A DNA stretch of 64,000 bases from Thermodesulfobacteriota bacterium (lineage in GTDB: Bacteria > Desulfobacterota > Desulfobacteria > Desulfobacterales > Desulfosudaceae): assembly GCA_040753795.1 (NCBI GenBank), contig JBFMDX010000019.1, forward strand, positions 1-64,000, written 5' to 3'. Below, one piece after another: positions 34,946 to 55,087 of the stretch. Under the pieces are notes generated by a model, which was not told the DNA's origin, made no database searches, and worked only from the letters and a program-made list of their open reading frames with translations. Position numbers and translations under genes: made by a program. Numbering within the stretch: position 1 is the first letter of the stretch; every line of letters begins with the position of its first letter.

Positions 34946-36406
34946 GTGGCAACCGGTATCAGGGCGGATATGGTGACAACCGTTGCCCGGGCAATGGCCG
35001 ATCATGACATGGTCGGCCGGGGCGAATCCATTCTGGTCGGCGTGTCCGGCGGGGTGGATTCCGTGACCCTGCTGTGGTGTCTGGTGAAACTGGCCGACAG
35101 GCTTGTCGTCTCGCGGATCGGTGTGGCGCATTTGAATCACGGTCTGCGGGGGCGGGACGCGGATAATGACATGGATTTTGTCCAGCGGCTGGCGGACGGA
35201 TACGGCCTGCCCTGTCACACGGCGGTCGTCGATTCGGCCCGGTTCGCGGAAAAGCATCGGCTTTCCCTGGAAGAGGCCGCCCGACGGCTGCGGTATGATT
35301 TTTTTTACAAAACAGCCGCAGCCCATGGGTATGACAGAATCGCCACCGCCCATCATGCCGACGACAATGCCGAACAGGTCCTGATGGCGCTGCTTCGCGG
35401 CAGCGGACCAGCGGGCCTGTCCGGCATCCCGCCCGTACGGGAGGGGAGGATCATCCGTCCTTTTATTAATGTGACCAGAGCGGAGATTGAGGCCGCGGCC
35501 GGCCGGGAGCGGCTGGAATTCATTACGGACGCGACCAACAACGATTTGAATTTTTTGAGGAACCGGGTTCGCCATGAGCTTATTCCCCGTTTGCGGCAAA
35601 CCTTTAACCCCCACATTACGGAGAATCTGAATCATCTGTCCGATATCCTACGGCAGGAGGAGGAGTGGCTGGAGCCGGTGGTTTCCAGGATCTTCTCCGC
35701 CGTTGTGTTGCCGCCGGAGAATGATGAAATCGCTCTTTCCTTAATATTATTGAAGGATCAGCCGCGGGCGGTTGGGCGGCGTCTGGTCCGGAAAGCCCTG
35801 GCCATGATCAAGGGCGACCTGCGGCGGATCACCTTTGTCCAGACGGATGAAGTCATTGAATTGATGGATAGAAATCAGTCGGCTGTCCTGGATTTGCCGG
35901 ACGGGGTTACGGTGACGAAATCAGGCGACCGGCTTGTTTTCCGCCTGACGCCGGGACGGCGCCGGAAAAAGGCCGCCGCCGCGCCGGTTTTTTCTTATAC
36001 CCTTTTCCCTGACGGGGCGGCGGATTTTTCTCTGATGATTCCGGAAACCGGCGCAAGGGTCGATTTTACCGTCATCAGCCGGGCGGATATTCATGATGTG
36101 ACCGTCGGCGGGGAGGGCGTCGCCCTGTTCGATCTGGAGAGGCTTTCCTTTCCCCTGACCATCAGAAACGCCCGGCCCGGCGACCGGTTTGTCCCCCTGG
36201 GCATGACGGGTCATCAGAAGGTCAAGGATTTTTTCATCAACCGTAAGGTTCCCCGGCATCTGCGTCGGTGCTGCCCGGTGGTTGTCTCCGGCGGAAAGAT
36301 CGCCTGGCTGGCGGGTTTCCGCATGGCCGATCCGGTAAAGATCACACCGGATACCACCCGGATACTGAAGGCGGAACTGGTCGGCCCGCCTGCGTCCGGT
36401 CGTTAA
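34946..36406 (+). CDS. tilS: tRNA(Ile)-lysidine synthase TilS
   Basis: The 486-residue enzyme has the N-type ATP pyrophosphatase P-loop GVSGGVDSVTLLW (about 32-44), AHLNHGLRGRDAD, ATAHHADDNAEQVLM and DATNNDLNFLRNRVRHELIP. A TilS substrate-binding and C-terminal domain ends with NARPGDRFVPLGMTG and KVPRHLR. It converts C34 of tRNA-Ile(CAU) to lysidine. The start is a GTG (34946) with SD GAAGGGAAG; an ATG at 34970 is an alternative. It converges with the outer-membrane gene with a 4-bp overlap of stops. Confidence 0.95.
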   Translation: MATGIRADMVTTVARAMADHDMVGRGESILVGVSGGVDSVTLLWCLVKLADRLVVSRIGVAHLNHGLRGRDADNDMDFVQRLADGYGLPCHTAVVDSARFAEKHRLSLEEAARRLRYDFFYKTAAAHGYDRIATAHHADDNAEQVLMALLRGSGPAGLSGIPPVREGRIIRPFINVTRAEIEAAAGRERLEFITDATNNDLNFLRNRVRHELIPRLRQTFNPHITENLNHLSDILRQEEEWLEPVVSRIFSAVVLPPENDEIALSLILLKDQPRAVGRRLVRKALAMIKGDLRRITFVQTDEVIELMDRNQSAVLDLPDGVTVTKSGDRLVFRLTPGRRRKKAAAAPVFSYTLFPDGAADFSLMIPETGARVDFTVISRADIHDVTVGGEGVALFDLERLSFPLTIRNARPGDRFVPLGMTGHQKVKDFFINRKVPRHLRRCCPVVVSGGKIAWLAGFRMADPVKITPDTTRILKAELVGPPASGR

Positions 36407-37923
36407 AAGTTGTACTTCAGGTTCATATACACCCGGTTGTTATCATGAATATTGCCGTACATGACGCTGTCGCCGTCATGATAGAAGATGCAGCCCGCGG
36501 TGAAAGCGAGGTCATCGGTGATCTCGTACTCGGCGGTCAGGCGCTCAAAGGCGCCGTCCTGGGCCCTGCCGCCGGTGGCCATGATCAGCAGCATCAATTC
36601 CAGGCGGTCATGAAACAGGTCGCGTGAGACGCGAAAAGCGGTTTCAAACCGGTTCTCTTCGGTATCGTCGGGTGATTCCCCCATCGGCTTCTCATAGTCA
36701 AACAGGTGGGTCTGCACCAGTTCAATAACGATCAGCGTGTTGGTCAATCCGGAATACTCAATGCCCGCCAGTCCCCTGATCCGGCTTTTTTCATCGGGGG
36801 TGGTATTGAATTGAAGGCCGTCGGTATAGGCAATTTCGGTTTTATACAGCCAGCTGCCGCGAGCCACGTTGAGCGAACATCCGGTCATGGCCAGCCGGGC
36901 GTGCCGCCGCTGGAAAACCGGCACTTGGACAATGATCGGCGCCAGGCCGCCGTCGGGCAGGGGCGCCTGGCCCACCACCATGTCCCGCGAGCCCGTGGTT
37001 TCAAAGTGGCTTTCATCGTTGAACAGGTAGGCGCCATACAGCGAAAGATCCCAGCCGCGGAAGATCCCCTTGAGGGACAGGGCCACCTCGGTGTTTTCAA
37101 AACCGGAGTCCGGTTCGTCCTCGGGCGGCAGCGTCCGGTCAAAGGGATAAAAATCGTTGCCCAGTACCGGCTGCTTGTCAAACCGTATTTCCGGGATCGC
37201 CATCACCGAAAGGGCGTAGTCTCCGGGATAATAGCTGAGTTTGGCCATGCCGACGGGCAGCCGGAGGTCTTCGATATCCACCATGGCGGGGTCCCGGTTG
37301 TCGATGGGGTTTAACATGTCGGTCACCCGGAAATTTTCGGTATTTCCCCAGACAACGATCTGACGTCCTGCCTTCAGGTCAAGCGCGGGCAGGATCGGCC
37401 CCTCGATATAGGCTTCCGTCAACTCGACCTCACTCTCATATTCGTCCAGGACCTGGTGGGGAAATTCGTCCCTTCCCTGAATGGCATAGGCAAAATCCCG
37501 GAACCCCCGTCCCCCCGCCCTGCAGCGCCATTCATCGGAGAGGTCGACATCAAGATTTAAAACCAGTTCGGGTCGCAGACGGGAGAGGCCCCGGTAGTCG
37601 GTCTGACCGGCGTCCGGGGCTTCATGGCTGATGTTGCAGACGGCCGCCAGGGTGATCTCACCGGAAAGATCCCAGGCCCGTTCGGATGGTTCGGCACCGG
37701 ATGCCGCCTGATAAACAGGGGTATCACCGGTTTCTTCAAATCCGGAAAGGACGCTCTGTATCTCCGAAGTCAGCGCCGCCGCCGTCGGCGGCGGATTGGC
37801 GGTTTCGGCAGCGGTGTCGGCCTGAACAGTCAGGGGGATAATGAATAACAGGCCGCAAATCAGCAGCATCCGGCCGGAAATCATGTCGCTTATATTCATA
37901 ATATTCTTTCTGGTTGGAGTCAT
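36403..37923 (-). CDS. DUF1302-type outer-membrane beta-barrel of the GH3 operon
   Basis: This protein of about 506 residues has a signal peptide (MLLICGLLFIIPLTVQAD). A long barrel-like region follows with the DUF1302 pattern LKAGRQIVVWGNTENFRVTD, then NPIDNRDPA and LRLPVGMAKLSYY. It ends in a terminal aromatic strand (RVYMNLKYNF). DUF1302 proteins are often encoded with RND/MMPL exporters and are thought to form outer-membrane ports or lipid-handling barrels. Here it is the last gene of the six-gene operon that starts with such an exporter. The ATG at 37923 overlaps the upstream stop (ATGA), favouring coupled translation; an ATG at 37899 is an alternative. Confidence 0.78.
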   Translation of the reverse strand: MTPTRKNIMNISDMISGRMLLICGLLFIIPLTVQADTAAETANPPPTAAALTSEIQSVLSGFEETGDTPVYQAASGAEPSERAWDLSGEITLAAVCNISHEAPDAGQTDYRGLSRLRPELVLNLDVDLSDEWRCRAGGRGFRDFAYAIQGRDEFPHQVLDEYESEVELTEAYIEGPILPALDLKAGRQIVVWGNTENFRVTDMLNPIDNRDPAMVDIEDLRLPVGMAKLSYYPGDYALSVMAIPEIRFDKQPVLGNDFYPFDRTLPPEDEPDSGFENTEVALSLKGIFRGWDLSLYGAYLFNDESHFETTGSRDMVVGQAPLPDGGLAPIIVQVPVFQRRHARLAMTGCSLNVARGSWLYKTEIAYTDGLQFNTTPDEKSRIRGLAGIEYSGLTNTLIVIELVQTHLFDYEKPMGESPDDTEENRFETAFRVSRDLFHDRLELMLLIMATGGRAQDGAFERLTAEYEITDDLAFTAGCIFYHDGDSVMYGNIHDNNRVYMNLKYNF

Positions 37924-39227
37924 CGAAGGTTGCAGTCTATTTCCGGGCCGGCGGAAGGTAAACTTTTGCCTTCCGGAGACAGGTGCGGCGTCAGGTGATT
38001 TTCGACCGCATATTTCAGATGGGATGCGTCCGGTTGAACCGGACACGGGCTCAAACCCCGGCGGAGATAAGCCATAAAATCGTCAAGACGGTTTCCGTCA
38101 GCCAGATTTTCCGGCATGGAGACATTGATGGAAATGGTCCGGTCGACCCCCAGCAGAATGAAGAAGACCGGGATCGAACAGGAGCAAGGGGGTAGAAGGA
38201 AGACGGATCGCGCGGCAAATTCGCGCGTTGAGAACTGTTTGGTTTCAAAACGGCCGAGGTTGGAGATAAAGCCCGATACCCAGTAGCGCCCGGTATGTAT
38301 TCCTTTGCGACAATCGGTTTCAAGGAATTTGCGAATAACCCACAGGGGTAGAAAGGGGATGAGGGTTTCGCTGAATGACAGCCGGCCGTCCGTTTGCCGG
38401 TGGTGATGAATCGACTGGTCAATGTCGGCGACGGTCGTGTCCGGGGCAACGTCCACGTAAATCGCCCGGGAGAGATTGGACGATGAGCGAACAGCCGCCT
38501 GCCGGTGCCGCAGGGAAATCGGGATACCGAAGACGACGCGGCCATCAGGGTGGTGCTGCCGGGCCGCCTGAGCCGTCAGCATCATCAGCCGGGGCATCAG
38601 ATTCGACACCGGACCGGGCAGTTCCAGCCGGGAAAAGGCTGCCCGGTTGGTTTCCCCCCGGGGCATGCCGGTGGGCGCCACGCACTGGCCGCCGGTCCAT
38701 TTGGGCTCATTGACGGGTGTGACGCGGCGAAACTGATCGATCGATTCGGTCCAGGTTGATCCGGCCGGCGTCTCGCCGCGAAGGACGCGAAAGACGTCCT
38801 CGATCCACATCATCAAACCCTGGCCGTCAATGACCGTATGGTGACCCCGGAACATGATTCGCGTTACGGGGCCGGTCATCAGAATCACGTCGCAGGTCGG
38901 ACCGCTGCGTATGGGCAGCGGGAATCGATAGAACGAAAGCCCTTCCGCGCTTTTACCCGACCAGCGGGAACCGTCGATTTGTCGAATCGGCGGGGTGATT
39001 CCCGTATCCACCAGCCGCGTGGCGTGAAGATTTCCCCTGGCGATCAACCGGGTGCCGGGGTTGGCCCGGGAAGCCGCGGCCACAGCCTGTCTCAAGGCGT
39101 CGACATCGATGGCGCCGACCCCTTCGACTACCACTTCAATGATTACCGGATGCCGGAACGCCTCATTCACCGTGTCGCCGGCCATATAGACGCGGGGGCC
39201 GTTGGTGATTTTCCGCCCGGCTTTCAC
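37920..39227 (-). CDS. HHxxxDG acyltransferase (condensation / WS-DGAT-like)
   Basis: The 435-residue protein has the catalytic motif GHHTVIDGQG (about 128-137) of CoA- or carrier-dependent acyltransferases: NRPS condensation domains, alcohol acetyltransferases and WS/DGAT. A second-half region VVFGIPISLRHRQ, then FISNLGRFE, resembles the latch region of such enzymes. It should join an acyl group to a hydroxyl or amine. There is no carrier protein or adenylation module beside it other than the GH3 enzyme, so it probably works on free small molecules. The GTG at 39227 overlaps the upstream stop (GTGA); SD is weak, suggesting translational coupling. Confidence 0.7.
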   Translation of the reverse strand: MKAGRKITNGPRVYMAGDTVNEAFRHPVIIEVVVEGVGAIDVDALRQAVAAASRANPGTRLIARGNLHATRLVDTGITPPIRQIDGSRWSGKSAEGLSFYRFPLPIRSGPTCDVILMTGPVTRIMFRGHHTVIDGQGLMMWIEDVFRVLRGETPAGSTWTESIDQFRRVTPVNEPKWTGGQCVAPTGMPRGETNRAAFSRLELPGPVSNLMPRLMMLTAQAARQHHPDGRVVFGIPISLRHRQAAVRSSSNLSRAIYVDVAPDTTVADIDQSIHHHRQTDGRLSFSETLIPFLPLWVIRKFLETDCRKGIHTGRYWVSGFISNLGRFETKQFSTREFAARSVFLLPPCSCSIPVFFILLGVDRTISINVSMPENLADGNRLDDFMAYLRRGLSPCPVQPDASHLKYAVENHLTPHLSPEGKSLPSAGPEIDCNLR

Positions 39228-40471
39228 ATCAGCACCATTTCATGGCCGGGCGGATGGGCCATGCCTGATTCACGATAGATTTCAACCGCTTCGGGTGCGT
39301 GAAGCTGATAGAGCAGAACCGGTGTGGCGTCGTACATGTAGCCGCGGGCGACGACCTCCAGCAGGCTCTGTTTATTGTAATCACAGAACGAGACGATGTG
39401 ATATGCCTTGGGCAGACCGCTTTTGTAGAGCGCGGTCAGCAGCCCGTCAAACACATCCAACCGTTCAGCGGCGGAGAGTCCGTGGGCCAGTTCGAGTGAT
39501 GTCAGGTAGAGGATGTCAATATTTTCATTGGGCCGGGGAACCTTGAGACCGACCAGGGCTCCCAGTTTCGCGATGAGTTCCTTGTCTGGAGGAAGGGCGT
39601 CAATGTAGATCTGACGGCCTTTCCCGGGGTCGAACGCGCCGAAGGCCCCGATGATGGTTCCGGCACTGTCCCGGGCGATAAAAAACGAGGCCATGGAAAA
39701 CCCGTCCCAGTATTTAAATCGGCGTTCCAGTTCTCCATTTTCTCCCGAATAGATATAGCCAAAGGTTTTGATCCGGTTCTGCGCGTCCAGAAAATTTTTC
39801 AATTCGTCCCGGTCTTTTTCTTCACCGGCGGCGACGGTGAATTTTTTGCCCGAATTTTTAAAGGCGCCGAGTCCGATGGCTTTCTGCGGTTTGCGGGCAT
39901 AAATGTTGACCGACTGATAGCTGGCCAGATTGCTGACCAGAAAGGCCTCCGCGGGTTTGGCGTCGACGCTTTTTGCCGTTTCCGGGCGCGGCTCGGTTTT
40001 CGGCAGGGCGCCCTTCTTCTCCTTGCCGATGGCCGCGGTGGCATAGATGTTGGTGGTGATGTAGGAGCCGTGGAAGACACGACACCGCTCCAGCTCGTCT
40101 ATCTCCCGGCCGACGCGGGTAAAGCCCAGGGCCATACTTTTCCAGTCGCCGGTTCCGGTGCGATCCCGTCTTCTTTTAAATCGAAGGTCGAGGAAGTGGC
40201 CCACCCGGTCAGGCCGGCCGTCGATGTAACAGGGCCGGATAATCAGCGCCGCCAGGCCTTCGAGTTCTCCCCGGGGGTTGGGGAACCCGAAGACATGGTG
40301 GTTTTCCGCGGCGTAGGTCAGGAACCGGAAGTAATCGGGGGATTTTTTTGTATGGACGCTGAAATTTTCGCTGGTCATGGCGATACGGTTATAGAGTGTT
40401 TGAATTTCGGGGTTGTCTTCCGGTGTCATGACGATGGAATCAAATTTTGCGGCAAAATCGTTGAGCTTCAT
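39224..40471 (-). CDS. GNAT-like protein, larger, of the GH3 operon
   Basis: This 415-residue protein is not firmly assigned. An N-terminal half (about 1-150) has the look of a GNAT acyltransferase: EGLAALIIRPCYIDGRPDRV, then HFLDLRFKRRRDRTG (a dLRv-like core followed by a basic CoA-loop-like run). The C-terminal half repeats a similar order (MASFFIARDSAGTIIGAFGAF, then DILYLTSLELAHGLS), so it may be two fused GNAT folds. I infer transfer of an acyl group in the operon's pathway. It begins 24 bp after the GH3 gene with SD GGAGG and overlaps the next gene by 4 bp. Confidence 0.6.
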   Translation of the reverse strand: MKLNDFAAKFDSIVMTPEDNPEIQTLYNRIAMTSENFSVHTKKSPDYFRFLTYAAENHHVFGFPNPRGELEGLAALIIRPCYIDGRPDRVGHFLDLRFKRRRDRTGTGDWKSMALGFTRVGREIDELERCRVFHGSYITTNIYATAAIGKEKKGALPKTEPRPETAKSVDAKPAEAFLVSNLASYQSVNIYARKPQKAIGLGAFKNSGKKFTVAAGEEKDRDELKNFLDAQNRIKTFGYIYSGENGELERRFKYWDGFSMASFFIARDSAGTIIGAFGAFDPGKGRQIYIDALPPDKELIAKLGALVGLKVPRPNENIDILYLTSLELAHGLSAAERLDVFDGLLTALYKSGLPKAYHIVSFCDYNKQSLLEVVARGYMYDATPVLLYQLHAPEAVEIYRESGMAHPPGHEMVLM

Positions 40472-40495
40472 CGGGGCAAGCCTCCTTATTCCGTC

Positions 40496-42157
40496 TTATG
40501 GCCGTTCATATATGCCGCTACGATCCGCGGTCGACGGCGCTTCGGCAAATGCGGATCGTAACGGTTCGGGAAGTTCACAGTTCCACAGGACCACCGGTTC
40601 GATTTTCAGGTTTCCCGCCACCATCCCGCGGGAGGCGGCCCGTGACTGGTAGATCGCTGTTGCCGTTGGCGACATGACGCATTTTACAGACGTCAGTTGT
40701 CTGAGATCCCGGGCCAGGTTGTAATGATAAATCTTGCGCAGTTCCTTTTCAGCCCGCTCGGCAATTTTCCCGGCCAGGGCCGGGTCGCTGCCTTCGCACA
40801 ACAGCACATAACCGTCAGTGGTGCCGGAATAGACCCTGGGCACGGCCAGCAGGCTGACCGGTTTGATCCCGTGGTTTTCCGCCAGCAGGCCCAGCAAGTG
40901 CTGGGCGGCTTCCGGACTCAGTTTTTCTCCGACCAGGTCGACGCCATCGGAACGCCCCAGGAACAGAAAGCAGGGGCAGCTTCCGAGAAAACCGGTTACC
41001 TCCAGTTTGTCATGCAAAAGGTACCGCAGCAGGCCGGAGCCCGTTGTCAGCACCGGCTGAACCACCTGCCCTTTTTTCAGTTCCCAGGCGCTCAAAATGT
41101 CGCTGGAATGCCAGTCCGCGAATTCATAGAAATGGCACTGATAGGTCAACGGGTACCGGTTGTCAAAAGGCATGGAAACAATGCCCTCGGTGGCCAGCAG
41201 TCCTTTGCCGTCCAGCGCGGCAAAAGGGAACAGGCGTTTTATCTCTCTGGCCCAGGTCGCCGAGGTCCAGGTGTCCCAGGCGCTGATCACGCTTAAGCCC
41301 GGCCACAGACGGGAAAGATTTTCCGGCGACAGCGTCGTTTCCCAGCCGGCGAGCGTGTCGGCCCCCTGGCGCGACCGCGGGCACGGCAGGTAGGCCAGGG
41401 ATTGTCTGGACTCCCCCCATTTCCCCGAAGCCAGCACCAGGGCGATCTCTTCCCGGTGGCTGTGGATCAGGTCGAGCAGGTTCAATAAAAAGGTCGGGCT
41501 CCACACGGAGACCAGGGAAAGGTCCCGGGCGGCGCACAGGTAGCAGGCGGTGGCGAACATGGACGCATCCGAAGTGGGCGCGTGAGCCACATCATCGGGA
41601 ACGGCCATGGTTTGCGACATGAACATCCGCTTCCACCAGGGCAGCAGCTTCAGGTCGTCATTGATATTCGGGCTGATATTGCCGCGCAGTTCCGTTGGAA
41701 TCCAGGAAAGCGACCAGTAATGGACACCTTTCCGAATGCCGGGGTATTGCCGGTACATGCGGTAGATCATCGGGGAAATGAAGGCGTCCACCTGGGCGAG
41801 AAACTGCCGTGTATAGGGGATCCATTTTATTTTTGAGGTGGACCCGCTGGTGGGCTGGTACCGGTCGCAGGCGCTGGTGCTGAGGATTGGTTCACCGGTC
41901 CGCCGCTGCTGCTCAATCATTTTTTCCCAGTGGCTGTACTCGGTCAGGGGCACTTTCGCACGAAACCTGTCGACGGACTCATCCCCGGTCAGTCCATAGT
42001 TACGGCCCGACATCGCGCCCCGGACGGTTTTGAGAATCGAACCGAGGTTGCGCTGCTGATGGGGCCGGATATCGGCCAGTCCCGCCAGGTATGCCCGGTA
42101 TCCCTTCCGCGAAACAACCATGGCCGCCCGGTGCGCTGACGTTGTGAAAAGCTCCAT
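40496..42157 (-). CDS. GH3-family acyl-acid amido synthetase
   Basis: The 553-residue protein belongs to the GH3 branch of adenylate-forming enzymes known from plant auxin and jasmonate conjugation. It has the nucleotide motif PTSGSTSKIKWIPYT (102-116), a LLATEG motif 2 (about 320) and a motif 3 region LRYLLHDKLEVTGF (about 378-392) followed by FLGRSDGVDLVGEKLS. GH3 enzymes activate a carboxylic acid with ATP and couple it directly to an amine or amino acid. Length is normal for the family. In bacteria their products are mostly unknown. It lies at the centre of an operon with two GNAT-like proteins, an acyltransferase and an exporter. Confidence 0.85.
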   Translation of the reverse strand: MELFTTSAHRAAMVVSRKGYRAYLAGLADIRPHQQRNLGSILKTVRGAMSGRNYGLTGDESVDRFRAKVPLTEYSHWEKMIEQQRRTGEPILSTSACDRYQPTSGSTSKIKWIPYTRQFLAQVDAFISPMIYRMYRQYPGIRKGVHYWSLSWIPTELRGNISPNINDDLKLLPWWKRMFMSQTMAVPDDVAHAPTSDASMFATACYLCAARDLSLVSVWSPTFLLNLLDLIHSHREEIALVLASGKWGESRQSLAYLPCPRSRQGADTLAGWETTLSPENLSRLWPGLSVISAWDTWTSATWAREIKRLFPFAALDGKGLLATEGIVSMPFDNRYPLTYQCHFYEFADWHSSDILSAWELKKGQVVQPVLTTGSGLLRYLLHDKLEVTGFLGSCPCFLFLGRSDGVDLVGEKLSPEAAQHLLGLLAENHGIKPVSLLAVPRVYSGTTDGYVLLCEGSDPALAGKIAERAEKELRKIYHYNLARDLRQLTSVKCVMSPTATAIYQSRAASRGMVAGNLKIEPVVLWNCELPEPLRSAFAEAPSTADRSGIYERP

Positions 42158-42174
42158 TGCGCCGGTCTCCTTTG

Positions 42175-43023
42175 TCAGGCGGCTTTCTTTTTGGCGATAT
42201 GTTTACGTTCGCCCGCGGAAGGCGTGGTCGGCAGGATCGTCACTTTGTTACCCTTGAACAGACTGTTGAAGGTGCGGCCGGTGAACTTCTTAAAATAAGC
42301 CGTGATGGAGGCCAGATCCACCGCGCCGATACAGGCCAGTTCAATGCCCTTCCGGCTGTCCGGGTTCAGCTCCTCGTAAAACCGGATCTTGGGGTATCTG
42401 TTCAGCATCTCCGGGGTGACCGGCGCCACGTCGCTTTTGATGGTCTGGTTCTCCTCCGCCCGGCCGAAATCCACCAGCCCGGTTACCGGGTTATACTTGT
42501 CGCCGAACATGTGTTCCGCTACCAGTCGGCATATTCCCCTGAGCTTGTCGGTTTTGGCGTCATGCCGCTGATAGTGGGGATAGTGATGGACCAGGTTGTT
42601 GGCGATCACCAGGTAGGTACGATAGCTCATGGAAATCATGAACCAGTAAGTGCTGAAAGGGTGGCGCAGGAAGAAGCGGACGAGAAACGCGAAAACCGTC
42701 CCGGCCATGGGGCTGTTTCCCGATGAGTTGCGCTGCCAGTAATCACGATGACAGACCGTGTCGCCGCAGAAAAAAACATGCGCCTTCCGTTTCTGATACG
42801 GCAGTTTCATGATTCTGATATTGGCAAAGGCGATAAGCTGTCCGGTCTTCCGTTCCCGCCACAGGAAGGAACCGGTTTTGGCGTTCAGGTCCTGTTTGAA
42901 GGTTTCATAATCGGCGTTTTCATAATAATCAAGAAAGAGGCTGTGCATCTCCCGAACCGTTTCCTCGGGGATATCCCTGACCGGCACAAACGCTGATTTG
43001 ATTTTTCCGGGTTTGAACAGCAT
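42175..43023 (-). CDS. GNAT-like protein, smaller, of the GH3 operon
   Basis: This 282-residue product starts at an ATG with a strong SD (AAGGAGATTAAAC); 19 more codons upstream are open but lack one. Residues 1-110 resemble a GNAT fold (GQLIAFANIRIMKL, then AHVFFCGDTVCHRDYWQRN). A membrane-associated-looking stretch FAFLVRFFLRHPFSTYWFMI (about 110-130) and a less defined C-terminus ending in KKKAA follow. FeeM-like N-acyl-amino-acid synthases are GNAT relatives and would suit this pathway, but I cannot show that it is one. It lies between the exporter gene (63 bp) and the GH3 gene (17 bp). Confidence 0.55.
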   Translation of the reverse strand: MLFKPGKIKSAFVPVRDIPEETVREMHSLFLDYYENADYETFKQDLNAKTGSFLWRERKTGQLIAFANIRIMKLPYQKRKAHVFFCGDTVCHRDYWQRNSSGNSPMAGTVFAFLVRFFLRHPFSTYWFMISMSYRTYLVIANNLVHHYPHYQRHDAKTDKLRGICRLVAEHMFGDKYNPVTGLVDFGRAEENQTIKSDVAPVTPEMLNRYPKIRFYEELNPDSRKGIELACIGAVDLASITAYFKKFTGRTFNSLFKGNKVTILPTTPSAGERKHIAKKKAA

Positions 43024-43086
43024 GTTTAATCTCCTTTTGTTGAAGGGGTTATTCCACAGCCTGAAAACGGCCAGGCCCACGAAGCA

Positions 43087-45591
43087 TTAACCGTCGGTTC
43101 CCGTCTTTAACTCCGGCGACATCATTCCGCCGTGCCCCAGGGGGGCCTCGGCTTTTCGGTAAAGGGCCGACGACGGCCCGGCCACCAGGATCATCAGGAC
43201 CGGCGTCACGATAAAATCGGCCAGCAGGGCCAGCATCAGTGCCAGGGCCAGCAGAATCCCGAACCGCGACAGATGGGGCATGGCCGCGGCGGTCAAGGCC
43301 AGAAAACCGCCGGACAGCACCAGTGTTGTGATCAGCATGGCGCGTCCGGTGCCCAGGAGCGTGCGGCGGACCGCTTCCCGCGGGTCGCCGGTAAGGTCGA
43401 AATGGTGGCGGAAGTGATGCATGAAGTGGGTGGTGTCGTCCACTACCAGGCCGATGGCGATGCTGCCGATCATGAGGGCCGTCATGTCCAGGGGGATTTT
43501 CATGGCGGCCAGGCCCCCCATGACCATCACGATGGGGAGCAGGTTGGGTAACATGGCCAGCAACCCGATTCTCACGTTGCCGGCCAGGAAAATCATCAAA
43601 ACGGAGATGATCACGGCCGCCAGCAGATAGCTCTGGTTCATGCTCGACAGGGTGGCCGGAAGGGTCCGGGCCAGGATGAGCGACATGCCGGTCAGGGTAA
43701 CACGGGCATGACCGGCAAAGGTCTCATTAAATACCCGGCCGATGAGCTCGCTCAACCTGTAAAGACCGGAAGAGTCGAGCCACGGTACTTTTACGGAAAC
43801 CCGTGTTTTGGAAAAGTCCGTATTAACTACCGACTCCAGTTCGTCGCTGCCGCTGTTTTCAAAAAGGAAGAGTTCCTGGGCCACGAGATCGCCGTCTCCG
43901 GGGATGGTGTAGAAAGCGGGATCGTCGTTATGCAGGGCCTGGTTGATCTCCCTGACCACGTCCGTGATGGAATAGACCTTGGTGATGGCATATGACGGTC
44001 CCATGCCCGCCGATTCAGCCTTCACTCGTTCGGCAGCGATGTCGATCCGGCCGAGCATGGCCGGATCATGCAGGCCGTTCTCCCGGCCGGTGTCGATAAC
44101 CGCTTCAAAAGAAATAATTCCTCCCAGCGCTTTATCGATGCGGATCATGTCCTGCTTGACCGTCATGTGATCGGAGAAATAGTTGAGCATGTGGTCCACG
44201 TACCGTAACCGGGGCAGAAAGCCCGCCGACAGAATCAGGATGACGACTGCTCCGGCGACAATTCTTCTGGGATGAGCGGCGCAGAAGTCGGCAATTCCCG
44301 ACAGTATCCGGTCCATGACCAGGGAATGCTGATCGACGGGGCTCCCGGGCCTGATCGGCAACAGGGCCAGCAGGGGCGGAAGCATGCTGATCGTATACAC
44401 CAGGGCCATGGTTACGCCCAGGGCGGAAAAAACGCCCATTTCTCCGATGGCCGATATCTCGGCAAAGGCAAAGGAGAGCAGGCCGGCCACGGTGGTCAGG
44501 CTGGTTAAAAGAACGGGCAGGCCGGATTGTTTCATCGCCCTGACGACGGCTTCCTCTTTGGATGTGCCCGGGCGATATTCCCGGAAGAAGATGGTCAGCA
44601 CATGAACCGAGTCGGCCACCCCGCCGCACAGAATGATGATCGGCAGAATTACCGACATGATTTTGATCTCCACCTGCATCAGAGCCATCAGCCCCAGGGC
44701 GGAAATCACCGCGGCCGTCACCACCAGCAGGGGAAGGCATACGCCCGATGTCCGCCGGAACAGAGCCCCTATGGAGAGAGCGATCACAGCCAGGGCAAGC
44801 AGCGAACAACGCGTCATGTCCGCGGCCACGGCCCGGTTGAAAATATCGACCACCACCGGGGAGCCGGAAAACCCGATCCGAAAATCAGGCGCCTGGTAGC
44901 GGGGCAGCAGGCGCGTAATGGCGTCGACGATCTGGCGGATTTCGGCCGCCGAGATAAAACGAGCCGGATTATCGGTCGGGACGGCAGCGGCCTTGTCGCC
45001 GGGCGAGTCGGAAAATTCGGCTATCGCTTCGGCATCGGATACCGGAGCCACGTTGATAACGGCGTCGGTTTCAATGACGATGGCCGCCATGGTGGCATCT
45101 TCTGAAACCAGGTAGTTGAGATAAAAGGGGTTGTTCAGGACCTGCTCTCGCAGCTGGCCCATATCCAGCGGTTCTTCGGGCCATGATTCCAGAAGTTCAC
45201 CCACATGAAGGGTGTCGTTTTCCCCGCTGATCCGGCGGGCCGAGACAAGGCTGTTGACGCGCCTGATGTGGGGAACGGCGGCCTCGATCTCCCGGTGCAG
45301 CGACTTGAGTTTTGTCATAAACCCGGTGGTAAATATATCCGGGGTGGAAATGCCGAGAATAATATTGCGATCCTGCCCGAAGGTCTGCCGGAAGCGGTCA
45401 TATTCCAGGCGGTAGGGATCGTTTGCGTGCAAAAGGGATTCCGAGGATGTGTCAAAGGTCAGACGGGGCATCTGTAAAAGGAAGAACCCGGTTGCTGCCG
45501 CCAATACCAGGAGGGCTGCGCGCGGATGCCGGTAAAGGCCGCGGGCCCAGCGCTCAAAAAGATCTTCAATCGCCGCTTTTACATGTTTCAT
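43087..45591 (-). CDS. RND superfamily (MMPL/HAE3-type) exporter
   Basis: The 834-residue protein has an N-terminal membrane helix, a periplasmic domain (about 40-230) and a bundle of six helices. A second periplasmic domain (about 450-620) and six more helices follow, the standard RND layout at the smaller HAE3/MmpL-like size. Typical stretches are VKIMSVILPIIILCGGVADS-like (IMSVILPIIILCGGVADSVH) and GSIAIGLVVDDTTHFMHHF, the latter carrying the intramembrane acidic pair. Members of this branch move lipids and hydrophobic metabolites. It is the first gene of the six-gene operon and probably exports its product. The ATG at 45591 has only a weak SD. Confidence 0.88.
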   Translation of the reverse strand: MKHVKAAIEDLFERWARGLYRHPRAALLVLAAATGFFLLQMPRLTFDTSSESLLHANDPYRLEYDRFRQTFGQDRNIILGISTPDIFTTGFMTKLKSLHREIEAAVPHIRRVNSLVSARRISGENDTLHVGELLESWPEEPLDMGQLREQVLNNPFYLNYLVSEDATMAAIVIETDAVINVAPVSDAEAIAEFSDSPGDKAAAVPTDNPARFISAAEIRQIVDAITRLLPRYQAPDFRIGFSGSPVVVDIFNRAVAADMTRCSLLALAVIALSIGALFRRTSGVCLPLLVVTAAVISALGLMALMQVEIKIMSVILPIIILCGGVADSVHVLTIFFREYRPGTSKEEAVVRAMKQSGLPVLLTSLTTVAGLLSFAFAEISAIGEMGVFSALGVTMALVYTISMLPPLLALLPIRPGSPVDQHSLVMDRILSGIADFCAAHPRRIVAGAVVILILSAGFLPRLRYVDHMLNYFSDHMTVKQDMIRIDKALGGIISFEAVIDTGRENGLHDPAMLGRIDIAAERVKAESAGMGPSYAITKVYSITDVVREINQALHNDDPAFYTIPGDGDLVAQELFLFENSGSDELESVVNTDFSKTRVSVKVPWLDSSGLYRLSELIGRVFNETFAGHARVTLTGMSLILARTLPATLSSMNQSYLLAAVIISVLMIFLAGNVRIGLLAMLPNLLPIVMVMGGLAAMKIPLDMTALMIGSIAIGLVVDDTTHFMHHFRHHFDLTGDPREAVRRTLLGTGRAMLITTLVLSGGFLALTAAAMPHLSRFGILLALALMLALLADFIVTPVLMILVAGPSSALYRKAEAPLGHGGMMSPELKTGTDG

Positions 45592-46002
45592 ATTCGTCCA
45601 TATGCAAAAAGGTTATTCCGGCGGGACAATCAGGAGAGGGGACTGAAAATCGCGAGCCCCCCCGCCCGTCTGAAATTGGTGATAACAAATAGCCCACATC
45701 CGAGGCCGGAACAATCGGGGAAACCCTGATTTATTGCCTCCAAAACCCTGAATTTGGCATATGAAAAGGCCCCCGGATGTTACCGTCATCGTCTGACAAA
45801 CGAGCGGGAATGGCCGTTATTAAAGGGCGGAAGGGCAGGAGGCCCGGCGGGGAACGAGCCGTTTCTCAAGGCATTTGGTATCACGAGGGGAAAGGGCGGC
45901 TTAATTTATGATTGAACATTGATTGTGCGCCATGGTATCTCTGCGGGTATAGAAAAATTGACGGCACTTCCTTACCCGCAATCAAGAAACTGATAACGGC
46001 GT
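45592..46002. promoter_or_regulatory. Divergent control region between exporter operon and sensor gene
   Basis: This 411-bp gap must hold promoters for both directions. I see no gene, no strong intrinsic terminator and no convincing sigma-70 or sigma-54 promoter by eye. AT-rich tracts lie at 45905-45930 and 45950-45990, before the plus-strand start. It is the natural place to look for binding sites of the response regulator encoded at 51267-51917. Confidence 0.4.
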
Positions 46003-49000
46003 ATGGTGCAAGGGCTTTCCCTCAGCGCTGCGGCGCGGCAATGGCTGGCTGATCGTCACGACCGGATAGTGGAAACGGAGACAGACGGGCGGGTGGCCAC
46101 CTTCGCGGCAGTGGACCGCCGGACCGGCCGGCCGGTTACGGCGCGGCTGTTCGGCATCAACGGGCATTCCCCGGATATCGGGGAGGCGCTTACGGAGTAC
46201 GTGGCGCGGCTCGCCCGCCTTTCCTCCGATCGGGTTCTCAAACTACTTGATCATCAGGAAGTGCGCGCCAACGGCACCGTCGGTCTCCTGGTGATCCAGG
46301 AGGCTCCTGCCGGCGAACCATTGAGCGCCATGCTGCCGTCGTTTCGCGCCATGATTGCCGAGGAAGGCCGCCTGAACCGGGGTTTCTGTTTTTTCGCGGC
46401 CCAGATGGCCGAGGCCCTGCAGGCGTTGCACGGCGCCGGCGTGATTCACCAGGCCGTCACCCCTGACAGTTTCCTGTTTGACCCTGCCACGCGGAGCCTC
46501 AAACTCGACGGCCTTGCCCGGGCGCCTGAAAGCGCCGGTCTTTCACCGGTAACTTCCGAGGCGGTACTTCCCTATATCTCGCCGGAACAGGCCGGTCGCA
46601 TGAGCCATACCGTCGATTTCCGCGCCAATCTCTATTCCCTGGGCGTGTTGTTTTATGAAATGATGACGGGCGTCACTCCTTTTTCCGCCAGCGACGCTAC
46701 CGGCGTATTATATGGTCACACCGCCCTTACGCCCATTCCGCCTTCAGAAGTGAACCCGGCAGTGGACGTCGTGCTTTCGCGCCTGGTACTCAAGCTGCTG
46801 GCCAAACATCCTGACGATCGTTACCAGAGTGCCGCCGGGCTCCTGGCCGATCTGGCCGGTCTGGCGTGCCGGTTTGACGCCGCGGCCCGTGTCCCGGATT
46901 TCAATCTGGGACGCAACGATGTTTCCCCGGTCTTTACGCTGCCTGACCGGCTTTATGGACGCGAACAGACACTCTCCTGTCTGCAAAAATGCTTTGACCG
47001 GATCTGCGCGGGCGATACCTGCGTGGTCATGATCGCCGGCGACACCGGTGTCGGTAAAACCGAAGTGGTCCGCCGGCTGGGGGCTTATGTCCGCGAGGCG
47101 GGCGGCATTTTTCTGGCCGGTAAATTTGACCAGCATCAGCAGGCCGTTCCCATCAGGGCGCCAAAGACCGCAATGGACAGCGCGGCCAGGTGGTTGCTGA
47201 GCCAGAGCCCGGAGAAGATCCAGATATGGCGTGAAAAAATCCTGTCGGCCGTTTCGCCCAACGGGCAAATCCTGGTGGACATCATTCCGGAAATGGAACT
47301 GGTGATCGGCAAGCAGCCGCCGGTCTGCGAGCTGCCCCCCATGGAGGCCATTATGCGGGTGGGGCTGGTTATGGAAAAATTCGGCTCCCTCTTTCTGGAA
47401 AAAGACCACCCGGTTGTCTTTTTCCTCGACGATATGCAATGGGCCGACAAGGGCAGCCTGTCCCACGGCATCGCCTTCTTACTGGCCCGGCAACGGCGTT
47501 ACTGCATGGTGCTGGGCACCTATCGAGACAACGAGGTCGACGAGGACCATCCGCTGACGCGGTACTTGAGCAAACTGAAACGAACCAGCATACCGGTCGA
47601 AATATTTCGACTGGAGCACCTGGACGAAGGCCAGACGGCGGCCATGGTGGCGGATATCCTTTGTCAAACCGATGAGGTGGTCGCCCCCCTGGCCCGCATC
47701 GTTTTTAAAAAAACCGGCGGTAACCCTTTTTTCATCCGGCAGTTTATGAGTTCGCTGCACGCCGGCGGGTTGATCTGCTACGACATGCGCCGGGGCAACT
47801 GGTCCTGGGACGCGGATCGCATTGCCGCCGCCGATATCACCGACAATGTGGCCCGGTTGCTCTCCACGGCCATTGACAAGCTTCCCGTGGAGACCCTGTC
47901 CGTGCTTCAGGCCGCCGCCTGCGTCGGCAATAGAATCGATCCGGATCTGCTGGCCCGGGTCCTGTCCCGCGATTTGTCCGATATCGTCGATCAGGCGCGG
48001 ACGGCGCTGAAGGCCGGCCTGCTTCGGGTCTATGTCGATCCTTCCCCGTCCCGGCAGGCGTCCGGGAAAGAAGCCGCGCATATCTGGGAGTTTGCCCACG
48101 ACCATATTCTGCAGGCCGTTTACCGCACCCTCCCTGAGGCCGCCGCCCGGGATCTCCACTGGGCTGTCGGAAAAGCGATGCTGGCCAGGGAGCCGACCGA
48201 GGGTGCCGGCAATAAAATTTTTGATATCGTATACCAGCTTCGGCTCGGCATGCCCCCGGACCTGTCACCGCCGGAAACAACGGAAATAGCCCGTCTTAAC
48301 CTCATGGCGGGTCGGAACGCAATGGAATCAGTCTCTTTCGGCGCCGCGGCCCCATACCTCCGTCATGCCTGCGACCTGCTTCCGCCAACCGCCTGGGAAA
48401 CGGACTACGACCTGTGCGCCGCGATCCACGCCAGCCTGGCCAAGTGTGAATTTGTGCTGGGCGCCTTTGACGCCTCGGAGCGCCTTTTCGGTCTGCTGCT
48501 GCAGAAAGCCCCCTCCCTGCCGGATCGGGCCAGAGCCTACAACGCCATGATCGAACTCCATACCGCCGCCGGAAACATTGACAAGGCGTTGATGCTGGGC
48601 CGCCGCGGGCTTGAGATGCTCGGCATCCTGCTGCCCCGCCATCCCAGCCGCCTGAAGGTGCTGCTGCTCCTGTCCAAGCTGCGCTTCGTCTGGGGGTTTC
48701 GCCGGCTGTCCACGATTATGGATATCCCGGAAAACAAAGACGAGCTTCTGAATATTCAGGAAACGCTGCTGACCAACATCGGCCTGCCCGCTTTTTATGT
48801 TGACCCGTTGCTGTGCCTGTGGCTTACCGCCACCGGAATTCTGCTGGGCATTCGTGATCCCGGAAAAGGCGTTCCCCTGCAGCACGCTTCTCTGGGCCTG
48901 ATCACGCTGGGGGCTTTTCTGGGGTCCATGTTCGGTTTTATCGGCATGGGACGTTCTTACGCCAAGATCGGTATGCGGCTGCTGGAGAGGCAGTCGCCGG

Positions 49001-51210
49001 GTCCCCATCAGGCCATCGCCTATTTCGTGTCCGCTTTTTTCAACCGGCACTGGTACCAGCCCGCGCGGAAGAACATCAACTACTTCAAACGGGCCTACCG
49101 TCACGCCATGAAATCCGGCGACATCAGCTATGCCGGCCACAGCATCAACTCCATGTTCATGGTTCATTTCTTTCTGGGAGACAACCTGGACACCATTTAC
49201 GCCGACCATAAGCGTTATCAGGCCTTTGTCCAGAACTCACGTTCCCCGTTCGTGGTGGCCACTTATATGGCCATCCAGCAGTTCTATCGGAGCCTCAAGG
49301 GACAGACCGCTTCCCCTTTCAGCCTGAGTGAACCCGGCTATGACGAGGAAGTCGAATTCGCGGCGGCCGTGGAAGGTGGCAACCTGATGCTGCAGTTTTT
49401 TTTCCTGCTGTTTCAACTCAAGCTTCTCGTGATTTTCCGCCAATGGGATAAAGCCATGGCCGTGGCCGACCGGATCCGGGCCAGGAACTACCTGCCGGCC
49501 GGCACCCTGGTCCTGACAGAATATTATTTTTATGCTTTTTTAAGCGCCATGGCGGTAGTTTCCACCTGCACGGACCGGCAGCAGGTCCGGCGATGCCGGC
49601 AGCAGGCGGCCCTTTCCATGAAAAAAATGAAGCAGTGGCGCCGATTACGGCCGGATAACTTCGAGCCCATGTTGCGCCTGATGGAAGCCGAGCAAGCCCG
49701 GGCGGGCGGTCGCCCTTCAAAGGTCCTGCGGCTGTACCGGCAGGCCGTGTCGTCGGCCGTAGCCGGCGGATTCACCCATCTGGCCGCCATAGCCTGCGAG
49801 TCCGCCGGGATTTTCCTGGCGGGCCATGGCGACAAGATCGCTTCCCGGGCATACCTGGTTGAGGCCAAAAGGACTTATGAAACCTGGGGAGCCACGGCTA
49901 AAGTCAGGGATATGGAGAAACAGTATGCCGCCGTTCTTTCCGTCATGCCGGAACGAACGCCATCCGTCCTGGAAAGAATGGACTACAACGCCGTGGTCGA
50001 AGCGCTGCAGGCCGTTTCCCAGGAGATCGTGGTGCGCAAACTGCTGACCCGGCTGATGGAAATCACCATGGCGGCCACCGGCGCCAATCGTGCCGCTTTT
50101 ATTTCCAGCAAAAACAATCAGCTTTTTGTGGAAGTGGAAGGCCGCGGGGACGAAGCCGGTCGAACGCTGCTGAAAACCGAACCACTGCTGGATCAGAAAA
50201 AAACGCTGATGGCTTCGGTCGTTTATTATGTCAAACGGACGCAGCAGCTGGTGGTCATCAATGACATGAAAAAAGCGCCGGCGCCGTTTCAGCGGATCGG
50301 AGACGCCATCAATCCTCCCCGATCGCTGGTGTGCATGCCCATGTCCCGCAGCGAACGGCTGGTCGGTATTCTTTATCTGGAAAACACCCTGACCGGCGGA
50401 ATATTCACCGAAGACCGGCTGGAACTGCTCAAGCTGATCGCCTCCCAGGCCGCCATTTCCTTTGAGAACGCGACCCTTTACGAACATGTCATGAAAAACG
50501 AGCAGGACCTCAAGCAGTTGTCCGAAAAGTTGCGAAACCTGTATTCGGAACTGATGCTGACCGAGGAGCGGGAACGGCGACGCATTGCCACCGAGCTTCA
50601 TGATCGTATCGGCCACGCCCTGGCCGGCACGAAAATCGGACTGGAGGCAATGGCCCAGGCACCCGGCGCCGACCACCGCCAGCGGTTGAACGACATTCTG
50701 CAAACCATCGAACAATCCATTGCCGACACCCGAACCCTTACGTTTGAAATCAGCCCGCCGATTCTCTATCACCTGGGCCTGGGCGCGGCCCTGGACTGGC
50801 TATGCGAAGAAACCCAGCAAAAACATGGTGTGGCGATAACCTTTACCGACATGGCCCGTGACGCCGCCATCGAACAGAAAACGGAAGTGCTCTGCTTCCA
50901 GATATTGCGGGAATTGCTGTTTAACGCCGTAAAACACGCCCGGGCCGGTCACATTAACGTAGCGCTGCGCATGGGGAAAGACCGGTTGCGCCTGACCATA
51001 CAGGATGACGGTATCGGTTTCGATCAATCGCGGCAGCCGTCAAGCGGGTCCACGACCGGCGGCGGGTTTGGCCTGTTCAGTATTCATGAGCGGTTACGAC
51101 TGGTGGGCGGGCAAATGGAAATCGACACGGGCGAGAACAGGGGCACGCGTATCGACATTATTATCCCCCTGGCGGCCGCCGGTGAAACACCCCGTCCGGA
51201 GGGGCTTTGA
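46003..51210 (+). CDS. Pseudokinase-ATPase-GAF-histidine kinase sensor protein
   Basis: This 1735-residue protein has the order of the trifunctional Ser/Thr kinase / AAA-ATPase / sensor histidine kinases. Residues 1-290 are an STK-like domain, about 318-600 an AAA_16-type ATPase (Walker A GDTGVGKT 346-353; Walker B VVFFLDDMQWAD), and about 700-1300 TPR-like helices. A GAF domain follows at about 1335-1490, then HisKA_3 with RRRIATELHDRIGH (His about 1533) and HATPase (LFNAVKHA, DDGIGFD, GGFGLFSI). The kinase domain is degenerate: Arg48 replaces the VAIK lysine, HRD is HQA (149-151) and DFG is LDG (168-170). It is therefore a pseudokinase that may sense or scaffold. It pairs with the NarL/LuxR regulator downstream and is divergent from the GH3 operon. 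Confidence 0.9.
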   Translation: MVQGLSLSAAARQWLADRHDRIVETETDGRVATFAAVDRRTGRPVTARLFGINGHSPDIGEALTEYVARLARLSSDRVLKLLDHQEVRANGTVGLLVIQEAPAGEPLSAMLPSFRAMIAEEGRLNRGFCFFAAQMAEALQALHGAGVIHQAVTPDSFLFDPATRSLKLDGLARAPESAGLSPVTSEAVLPYISPEQAGRMSHTVDFRANLYSLGVLFYEMMTGVTPFSASDATGVLYGHTALTPIPPSEVNPAVDVVLSRLVLKLLAKHPDDRYQSAAGLLADLAGLACRFDAAARVPDFNLGRNDVSPVFTLPDRLYGREQTLSCLQKCFDRICAGDTCVVMIAGDTGVGKTEVVRRLGAYVREAGGIFLAGKFDQHQQAVPIRAPKTAMDSAARWLLSQSPEKIQIWREKILSAVSPNGQILVDIIPEMELVIGKQPPVCELPPMEAIMRVGLVMEKFGSLFLEKDHPVVFFLDDMQWADKGSLSHGIAFLLARQRRYCMVLGTYRDNEVDEDHPLTRYLSKLKRTSIPVEIFRLEHLDEGQTAAMVADILCQTDEVVAPLARIVFKKTGGNPFFIRQFMSSLHAGGLICYDMRRGNWSWDADRIAAADITDNVARLLSTAIDKLPVETLSVLQAAACVGNRIDPDLLARVLSRDLSDIVDQARTALKAGLLRVYVDPSPSRQASGKEAAHIWEFAHDHILQAVYRTLPEAAARDLHWAVGKAMLAREPTEGAGNKIFDIVYQLRLGMPPDLSPPETTEIARLNLMAGRNAMESVSFGAAAPYLRHACDLLPPTAWETDYDLCAAIHASLAKCEFVLGAFDASERLFGLLLQKAPSLPDRARAYNAMIELHTAAGNIDKALMLGRRGLEMLGILLPRHPSRLKVLLLLSKLRFVWGFRRLSTIMDIPENKDELLNIQETLLTNIGLPAFYVDPLLCLWLTATGILLGIRDPGKGVPLQHASLGLITLGAFLGSMFGFIGMGRSYAKIGMRLLERQSPGPHQAIAYFVSAFFNRHWYQPARKNINYFKRAYRHAMKSGDISYAGHSINSMFMVHFFLGDNLDTIYADHKRYQAFVQNSRSPFVVATYMAIQQFYRSLKGQTASPFSLSEPGYDEEVEFAAAVEGGNLMLQFFFLLFQLKLLVIFRQWDKAMAVADRIRARNYLPAGTLVLTEYYFYAFLSAMAVVSTCTDRQQVRRCRQQAALSMKKMKQWRRLRPDNFEPMLRLMEAEQARAGGRPSKVLRLYRQAVSSAVAGGFTHLAAIACESAGIFLAGHGDKIASRAYLVEAKRTYETWGATAKVRDMEKQYAAVLSVMPERTPSVLERMDYNAVVEALQAVSQEIVVRKLLTRLMEITMAATGANRAAFISSKNNQLFVEVEGRGDEAGRTLLKTEPLLDQKKTLMASVVYYVKRTQQLVVINDMKKAPAPFQRIGDAINPPRSLVCMPMSRSERLVGILYLENTLTGGIFTEDRLELLKLIASQAAISFENATLYEHVMKNEQDLKQLSEKLRNLYSELMLTEERERRRIATELHDRIGHALAGTKIGLEAMAQAPGADHRQRLNDILQTIEQSIADTRTLTFEISPPILYHLGLGAALDWLCEETQQKHGVAITFTDMARDAAIEQKTEVLCFQILRELLFNAVKHARAGHINVALRMGKDRLRLTIQDDGIGFDQSRQPSSGSTTGGGFGLFSIHERLRLVGGQMEIDTGENRGTRIDIIIPLAAAGETPRPEGL

Positions 51211-51266
51211 ACGAAAGTTAACGCCAATCAGGCCCGCGGCCGGACGATCTGGTGAAAGGAAATGAA

Positions 51267-51917
51267 ATGATTACGGTTCTTGTCGCCGATGACCATGCCA
51301 TCATTCTTGACGGTATTTGCAGCCTGCTGGGAACCATTTCCGGCCTGAAGGTTGTGGGGCGGGCCGAGAACGGTCGTAAAGCGCTGGAGCTTGCCATAAA
51401 GCTGAGGCCGGATGTTGTCATCATGGATATCAGCATGCCTGAATTAAACGGTTTTGAAGCCGCCCGCCAGATCGGGGCCGAAGTTCCCGGGGTCAGGATC
51501 ATCGCCCTATCCATGTATGCCGAAAAGCGTTACGTCCTGGGCATGCTGAAGGCCGGCGTGTCCGGATACCTGATCAAGGACTGCGCTTTTCAGGAACTGG
51601 CCGAGGCCATTTCCGTCGTGCACCGCGGAGGCACTTACCTGAGCCCCAAAATAGCGGACACCGTCCGCAAGGCGCTGCTGGACAGCATCGAGGAAACCCC
51701 GATGACGGTATCGGAGGAATTGACCGAACGGGAAAGGCAGGTGCTGCAGCGGATGGCGGAAGGGGTCAAGACCCGGGATATCGCGGAAGAGCTTCATGTC
51801 AGCGTTAAAACGGTCGAGACCTACCGCGCCAGCATCATGCAGAAACTCAACCTGTACAGCGTCGCCGAGCTGACCAAGTTCGCCGTACGGGAAGGGCTGA
51901 CGCCGCTTGAAAAATAG
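51267..51917 (+). CDS. NarL/LuxR-type response regulator
   Basis: The 216-residue protein has a receiver domain (ADDHAIILDG with acidic pocket; phospho-acceptor Asp in VVIMDISMPELNG; conserved Lys in GYLIKD). A LuxR-type helix-turn-helix follows (LTERERQVLQRMAEGVKTRD, then VSVKTVETYRASIMQKL). It is the evident partner of the HisKA_3 kinase encoded 56 bp upstream, and probably acts at the divergent control region of the GH3 operon. The ATG at 51267 has SD AAAGGAAA; a GTG at 51252 is less likely. Confidence 0.93.
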   Translation: MITVLVADDHAIILDGICSLLGTISGLKVVGRAENGRKALELAIKLRPDVVIMDISMPELNGFEAARQIGAEVPGVRIIALSMYAEKRYVLGMLKAGVSGYLIKDCAFQELAEAISVVHRGGTYLSPKIADTVRKALLDSIEETPMTVSEELTERERQVLQRMAEGVKTRDIAEELHVSVKTVETYRASIMQKLNLYSVAELTKFAVREGLTPLEK

Positions 51918-54224: not shown

Positions 54225-54237
54225 TGAAATACGCTTT

Positions 54238-55077: not shown

Positions 55078-55087
55078 GGTTTCTCCT

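Follow-up and report, generated by a model that had tools for sequence, protein, structure and literature searches.

Which product could a bacterium make and export with an operon that joins a GH3-family amide synthetase to other acyltransferase-like proteins? The locus that raises this question lies in the 64,000-nucleotide stretch analysed here (the window), positions 1 to 64,000 of contig JBFMDX010000019.1 (assembly GCA_040753795.1) from a Thermodesulfobacteriota bacterium of the family Desulfosudaceae. An earlier note, made from the sequence alone, had described six minus-strand genes at 36403-46002 as a single pathway to an exported acyl amide. Open reading frame (ORF) coordinates place all six on the minus strand at 36403-45591, with the families that it had named; the rest of its span, 45592-46002, is the gap between the operon and a divergent kinase gene. 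The genes are separated by 6 bp (63 bp with the ATG start of the GNAT gene), 17 bp, 24 bp, a 4-bp overlap and 17 bp, which leaves one such overlap where several had been described. We consider it somewhat probable that this operon represents one form of a widespread acylation module that needs no carrier protein and exports its product, working by the mechanism proposed below for its four enzymes and two export proteins; the conserved module itself probably performs carrier-free acyl-amide synthesis with export.

Proteins of the operon

The GH3-family protein, a putative acyl-adenylating amide synthetase of 553 residues (40496..42157, minus strand), matches PF03321 at 127.7 bits (cut-off 23.6) and PF23571 (GH3_M) at 52.9 bits, and its gene is single-copy in the source genome (4.75 Mb, 41 contigs). 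The GH3 profile matches plant GH3 structures, with E 1.1e-13 to GH3.5, and the ten PDB sequences that it matches all come from plant GH3 proteins. In nucleotide-binding motif I, PTSGSTSKIKWIPYT (41810..41854, minus strand), 12 of 15 residues are invariant among the 4 sequences of alignment A1, and inspection of an alignment against the motifs in the excerpt of PMC12493201 gives a motif-III-like GLLRYLLHD. The domain and these two motifs liken the protein to the plant GH3 acyl acid amido synthetases, from which it differs in belonging to a bacterial operon, in being shorter than their PDB chains (575-620 residues) and in its divergent motif II. An identity with the bacterial GH3-like enzyme OlsH was tried and rejected, with 19.3 bits to NF052613 against an NCBIfam equivalog cut-off of 620. 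In a quick tree the GH3 proteins of the module form one clade (SH-aLRT 100, stem 2.36) separate from three other GH3s, and the window branch is nested within a sub-clade where RND pumps and HHxxxDG proteins are common; a fourth outside GH3, that of L006, is a bad row, placed within the clade with a branch length of 10.

The two proteins beside it, of 282 and 415 residues, have no Pfam match at E<=1, and Pfam yielded nothing useful for their families (the best GNAT-type trace in the shorter family was Acetyltransf_9, in 2/16 members at E 0.083). The shorter family had no NCBIfam match, and PDB sequence searches with both alignments found no convincing match. AlphaFold2 models of the two proteins were built from window and related-locus sequences. 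The shorter protein, GNATshort (42175..43023, minus strand), has 282 residues from the ATG at 43023 or 301 from an alternative GTG at 43080 (ORF 42175-43080), and in its model (predicted local distance difference test score, pLDDT, 83.6) it is a single-domain GNAT fold. Foldseek gave this model 144 matches at E<=0.001, the best being AAC(2') at E 7.5e-6, and VIA aligned it with NatD (Z 12.5, root-mean-square deviation (rmsd) 4.6, 165 residues aligned) and LasI (Z 11.0, rmsd 3.5, 164 aligned). A Myxococcota locus (L015) also retains part of a second GNATshort copy, 49 residues at 57% identity, just upstream of its intact gene (8393-8539).

The model of the 415-residue protein (39224..40471, minus strand) has two GNAT domains and matches N-myristoyltransferase (NMT) in Foldseek at E 3.7e-11. 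VIA aligned it over its whole chain with NMT 8hbs (Z 19.9, rmsd 4.1, 319 aligned), and the mycobacterial tandem GNAT MAB_4324 was nearly as close (Z 18.2, rmsd 4.5, 306 aligned); because of this second score we use the safe name "tandem GNAT, NMT-like". Identity to NMT is about 10% and none of 13 NMT-like members (alignment A5) matched the Pfam NMT family at E<=1. Each of the 39 NMT-like proteins found across the loci, a set that contains the window protein and falls into 22 clusters at 50% identity, ends exactly four residues past a conserved Glu (38) or Asp (1). The tails past the last conserved column run to 22-61 residues in GNATshort (54 proteins), 0-49 in GH3 (45) and 11-55 in the HHxxxDG proteins (9), a comparison that left out GH3 ORFs below 400 residues (3 ORFs, in L035 and L075) and HHxxxDG ORFs below 300 residues (2, in L022) and dropped no NMT-like ORF. 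In human NMT1 the C-terminal carboxylate of the last residue, Gln496, is the catalytic base, according to the excerpt of PMC7048800. We read the fixed end of the bacterial proteins as a functional C-terminus, which fits an NMT-style catalytic carboxylate. Other tandem GNATs may share such catalysis; the tandem GNATs also include the N-acetyltransferase PamZ. The window protein thus resembles NMT in its predicted tandem-GNAT architecture and fixed end, and differs from it in a substrate that is presumably a small molecule. Gammaproteobacterial proteins of about 366 residues are its remote homologues (hmmsearch 6.5e-7, hhalign E 2.3e-5). The earlier note had taken the 282- and 415-residue proteins for acyltransferases and had named structure prediction as what could overturn this; the GNAT folds of both models uphold it.

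The 435-residue HHxxxDG acyltransferase-like protein (37920..39227, minus strand) carries an HHTVIDG motif (38823..38843, minus strand) and matches Pfam Condensation weakly, at 10.3 bits, below the cut-off of 30.6. Four of seven aligned family members match that model (best E 1.1e-4, in a relative); H129, H130, D134 and G135 are invariant in the 7 sequences of alignment A6, and HHxxxDG is intact in 8/9 family members, the window protein among them. Relatives of 315-353 residues, together with one fused to an adaptor-like region (L016), keep HxxxDG and lack the first His (9/9). One Exilibacterium relative (L022, 5524-6167, minus strand) has N- and C-terminal parts only, its middle missing. Pfam scans of the six operon proteins found no carrier-protein domain, which bears out the carrier-free character proposed by the earlier note.

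The two remaining genes point to export. The 834-residue transporter (43087..45591, minus strand) matches PF03176 (MMPL) at 98.2 bits (cut-off 20.5) and is HAE3-like: TIGR00921 is its best NCBIfam model at 170.6 bits, below the cut-off of 351.9. The 499-residue outer-membrane barrel (36403..37902, minus strand) matches PF06980 (DUF1302) at 93.9 bits (cut-off 23.2) and has an ATG start and, by eye, a signal peptide, with a GTG at 38046 also open as a start; like the GH3 and MMPL/RND proteins it passes its Pfam cut-off. PMC6394551 links the efflux of apolar monoterpenes to an HAE3 pump with a co-expressed DUF1302 protein and a DUF1329 protein (AmeABCD). The window operon resembles AmeABCD in pairing an MMPL/RND pump with a DUF1302 barrel; unlike it, the operon has DUF1302 alone of these partners, Pfam finding no DUF1329/LolA-like gene among its six. 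Such genes stand on other contigs of the source genome, as a LolA_like+DUF1302 and a DUF1302+DUF1329 pair.

The enzyme core in other genomes

A first set of 23 loci, selected through GH3, comprised the window, a genome of the same family (G002) and 21 relatives from a scan of named genomes: Thalassolituus, Oleispira, Oceanobacter, Moritella, Pleionea, Exilibacterium, metagenome-assembled genomes (MAGs) of Myxococcota, Desulforapulum and Bacteriovoracaceae, and others. The set includes near-identical Thalassolituus-type MAGs. GNATshort lies near GH3 in 22 of the 23, the remaining locus (L024) having a run of N there; its gene had been missed by the ORF caller in L028, L031 and L033 and was recovered by tblastn. 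In L035 one Rieske gene stands between GNATshort and GH3, the latter broken into two frames. The closest genome with the set is G002, where GH3 is 80% and the RND transporter 71% identical to the window's; the order there is RND-GNAT-GH3-NMT-like followed by a LolA_like protein (PF17131, E 1.5e-55), with no HHxxxDG or DUF1302 gene beside it.

We then ran a GNATshort profile, whose members had originally been found through GH3, on evenly drawn genomes. It matched 3/297 genomes of the window's phylum (its own included), 10/369 of the class of Thalassolituus and 25/235 of the phylum Myxococcota. Flanks were examined for 43 places that had not been used to build the profile, 31 of them strong (29 genomes) and 12 weaker, the cut lying between E 1e-32 and 5e-25 and having been set after the scores were seen; a weak match in G481 (58 residues, E 8.9e-5) stands outside the 43, and in two of the genomes so selected (G985, G824) the GNAT gene is interrupted by an in-frame stop. 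GNATshort has GH3 no more than 5 kb away in 22 of the 31 strong places, or 22/43 if no cut is made, none of the 12 weaker places having GH3 or the NMT-like gene. GH3 is present in 59/235 genomes of the same Myxococcota sample. Since 16 kb amounts to about 0.3% of a genome of 5 Mb, chance does not explain 22/31, or 22/43. Pairwise distances correlate as well (GH3-GNATshort r 0.83, GH3-NMT-like r 0.80, with no correction for species relatedness).

GNAT and GH3, usually with the NMT-like gene, recur in Desulfobacterota, Myxococcota and Gammaproteobacteria and on a Citrobacter plasmid. Among 57 loci the neighbours include a Rieske oxygenase cluster (15 loci), a radical-SAM cluster (9, with a weak B12-binding match), a fatty-acid desaturase (9), a fatty-acid hydroxylase (2) and an RnfD/FG-GAP protein (6), each cluster being named from one or two Pfam-scanned members. 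Cluster K26 (4 loci) looks AurF-like, but its representative has no Pfam match and we make no such claim for it. In L088 nine adjoining same-strand genes encode Rieske, unknown, GNAT, GH3, NMT-like, RnfD/FG-GAP, desaturase, unknown and DUF4440 proteins. The desaturases and the hydroxylase, which accompany the genes in other branches, speak for a product with fatty acyl groups. Two Acinetobacter baumannii records hold an HlyD-type adaptor, an MFS pump, GNATshort, GH3, an outer-membrane efflux protein and the NMT-like gene (Pfam on L107), the GNAT-GH3-outer membrane channel-NMT-like operon lying at 8114-12999 of L107 (NZ_CP064203.1) and 8114-12996 of L110 (NZ_CP104448.1). Both records are labelled plasmids and, at about 4 Mb, are chromosome-sized. 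In Citrobacter portucalensis the GNAT-GH3-NMT-like set and four same-strand radical-SAM genes (L108, 8229-18094), with a desaturase nearby, are on the mobilizable IncF plasmid NZ_CP134684.1; a megablast search of E. coli genomes for this module found no match. Burkholderia arboris has a GNATshort relative about 4 kb from GH3.

Exporters accompany the enzymes in different kinds. An RND transporter is found in 21 of the 23 GH3-selected loci; of three relatives scanned, L017, L026 and L032, all have an AcrB-type pump (PF00873, 461-520 bits), not MMPL, accompanied in L032 by an HlyD-type adaptor. Beside the enzyme core there may thus be MMPL with DUF1302, AcrB-type with an adaptor, or MFS with an outer-membrane channel. 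The four enzymes of L015 have no match to the RND profile within about 10 kb on each side, so an exporter is not always adjacent. That varied exporters occur with the same enzymes suggests that the product leaves the cytoplasm, and this recurrence across lineages agrees with the export that the earlier note had proposed.

Proposed route and other readings

It is from the protein families that we infer every reaction, what the substrates are, in which order the steps run, and that the product would be a lipid-like amide. Using ATP, the GH3 enzyme would adenylate a free carboxylic acid (a fatty acid is the probable substrate) and join it to an amine, for instance that of an amino acid, to give an amide. 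Both the NMT-like tandem GNAT, whose own C-terminal carboxylate would act as the base, and the single GNAT would take acyl groups from acyl-CoA or acyl-ACP and attach them to amines of this same small molecule. In some branches the HHxxxDG enzyme would add a further ester or amide. The RND transporter would then carry the amphiphilic product to the periplasm, from where the DUF1302 barrel would deliver it to the outer membrane or through it.

Several results weigh against this explanation. Motif II of the GH3 (LLATEG) departs from YGSSE, the form in the excerpt of PMC12493201; the model of the NMT-like protein has a pLDDT of 63.8, falling below 50 at its C-terminal end; and both GNAT models speak to fold, not to donor or acceptor. 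Within the GH3-selected loci the NMT-like gene is present in 20/23, none being detected in L026, L027 and L035, and an HHxxxDG or HxxxDG protein was detected in 11, leaving 12/23 without one. Nine of the strong places selected by GNATshort are without GH3, which is therefore not obligatory: four have the NMT-like gene (L069, at a contig end, L074, L083 and L094) and five have neither (L064, L065, L084, L086 and L090, two at contig ends), the NMT-like gene being found in 18/31 overall. The exact six-gene set was seen in no other genome searched, and we rejected it as the conserved unit, which is instead the enzyme core. Of the single pathway of recurring genes that the earlier note had proposed, this core and export in general survive, while the exact six genes do not recur, G002 and L015 each differing.

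A described precedent is OlsH (2025), a GH3-like enzyme that makes N-acyl ornithine in the planctomycete Singulisphaera acidiphila; the excerpt of PMC12493201 adds its authors' view that other bacterial GH3s may use other amino acids. As described there, OlsH forms an N-acyl amino acid from a free fatty acid and ATP without a carrier, and a second acyltransferase, OlsI, is encoded in the same operon, as in the window operon. The window operon differs: in place of an alpha/beta-hydrolase corresponding to OlsI, of which Pfam finds none among its six genes, it has two proteins of GNAT fold, one of the HHxxxDG type and an exporter. The earlier note's remark that it knew of no described bacterial pathway with this set has to be narrowed, this GH3 amino-lipid route being published; on the gene set itself there was no paper among the literature matches listed, OlsH alone being relevant. 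On bacterial NMT relatives the matches listed likewise held nothing relevant beyond OlsH.

The OlsH precedent for GH3-made amino lipids (PMC12493201, excerpt) also suggests another product, a structural membrane amino lipid comparable to ornithine or glycine lipids, which a hopanoid-type (HpnN-like) transporter would deliver to the outer membrane and which would not be a secreted metabolite. The RND protein does match the HpnN model (TIGR03480, 112 bits, cut-off 752), and a LolA_like protein stands beside the set in G002. We nevertheless judge this unlikely: the distribution over the three genome samples is patchy, the relatives have efflux machinery that suits secretion (an AcrB-type RND pump and its adaptor, or an MFS pump and an outer-membrane efflux protein), and the oxidative tailoring genes of other branches resemble specialised metabolism.

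Several of the carriers belong to genera known as hydrocarbon degraders. With this ecology, and with plant GH3 enzymes as the solved structures matched, the operon might serve detoxification, with toxic carboxylic acids coupled to amino acids by GH3, in the way that plant GH3s treat hormones and benzoates, and the conjugates then expelled by the pump; AmeABCD, as excerpted in PMC6394551, exports apolar monoterpenes. Two or three more acyltransferases, with the desaturases, Rieske and radical-SAM proteins found elsewhere, exceed what conjugation needs, and this reading seems to us improbable. Very improbable is an antibiotic-type pathway with one GNAT protein, or both, acting as an acetyltransferase for self-resistance and not in biosynthesis, as the resemblance of GNATshort to AAC(2') and the self-resistance N-acetyltransferase PamZ (PMC9054821, excerpt) might suggest, but GNATshort stays with GH3 through several tailoring contexts and the distances of GH3 to GNATshort and to the NMT-like protein correlate as given above.

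Beyond the carrier-free acylation module with export, we put forward tentatively, as a possibility about which we keep considerable doubt, that these loci form a class of biosynthetic cluster absent from the papers searched, with GNAT, GH3 and the bacterial NMT-like tandem GNAT as its signature. Such clusters would assemble small molecules without a carrier, could exchange their exporters and oxidative tailoring genes, and would range over several phyla, an Enterobacteriaceae plasmid and A. baumannii included. The NMT-like enzyme would in that case be the bacterial equivalent of N-myristoyltransferase, with a metabolite and not a protein as its acyl acceptor.

Flanking genes and wider meaning

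Beside the operon a divergent gene (46003..51210, plus strand) encodes a Ser/Thr kinase-AAA-GAF-histidine kinase (PF00069, PF13191, PF01590, PF07730, PF02518), which could possibly regulate the operon; in G002 none of the listed ORFs that flank the set corresponds to it. The LuxR-type response regulator that follows (51252..51917, plus strand; PF00072, PF00196) is a possible partner of this kinase. An alpha/beta-hydrolase of the monoacylglycerol-lipase type (51927-52784, minus strand; PF12146, 264 bits) lies about 6 kb from the operon, beyond the two divergent genes; OlsI is also an alpha/beta-hydrolase. Further on, three adjoining minus-strand genes (52899-56137) encode a DUF169 protein between two Cys-rich proteins that have no Pfam match and look 4Fe-4S-like by eye. 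Downstream of a TetR gene, an open frame of 2142 residues (57168-63596, plus strand) contains many near-identical repeats (for example TVTYNGNTNTGGAVPTDG...GYTFAGWNTAANGSGT), and its product is likely secreted.

If the proposed module is real, the combination of GNAT, GH3 and NMT-like genes would be a search handle for clusters that are likely to escape genome mining guided by carrier proteins, and two protein families without Pfam matches would gain a testable role. Bacterial GH3 chemistry would extend beyond ornithine lipids. Eukaryotic N-myristoyltransferase is a drug target, and a bacterial NMT-like enzyme would be available for comparison with it. The occurrence in A. baumannii and on a Citrobacter plasmid gives the module relevance beyond sediment bacteria.

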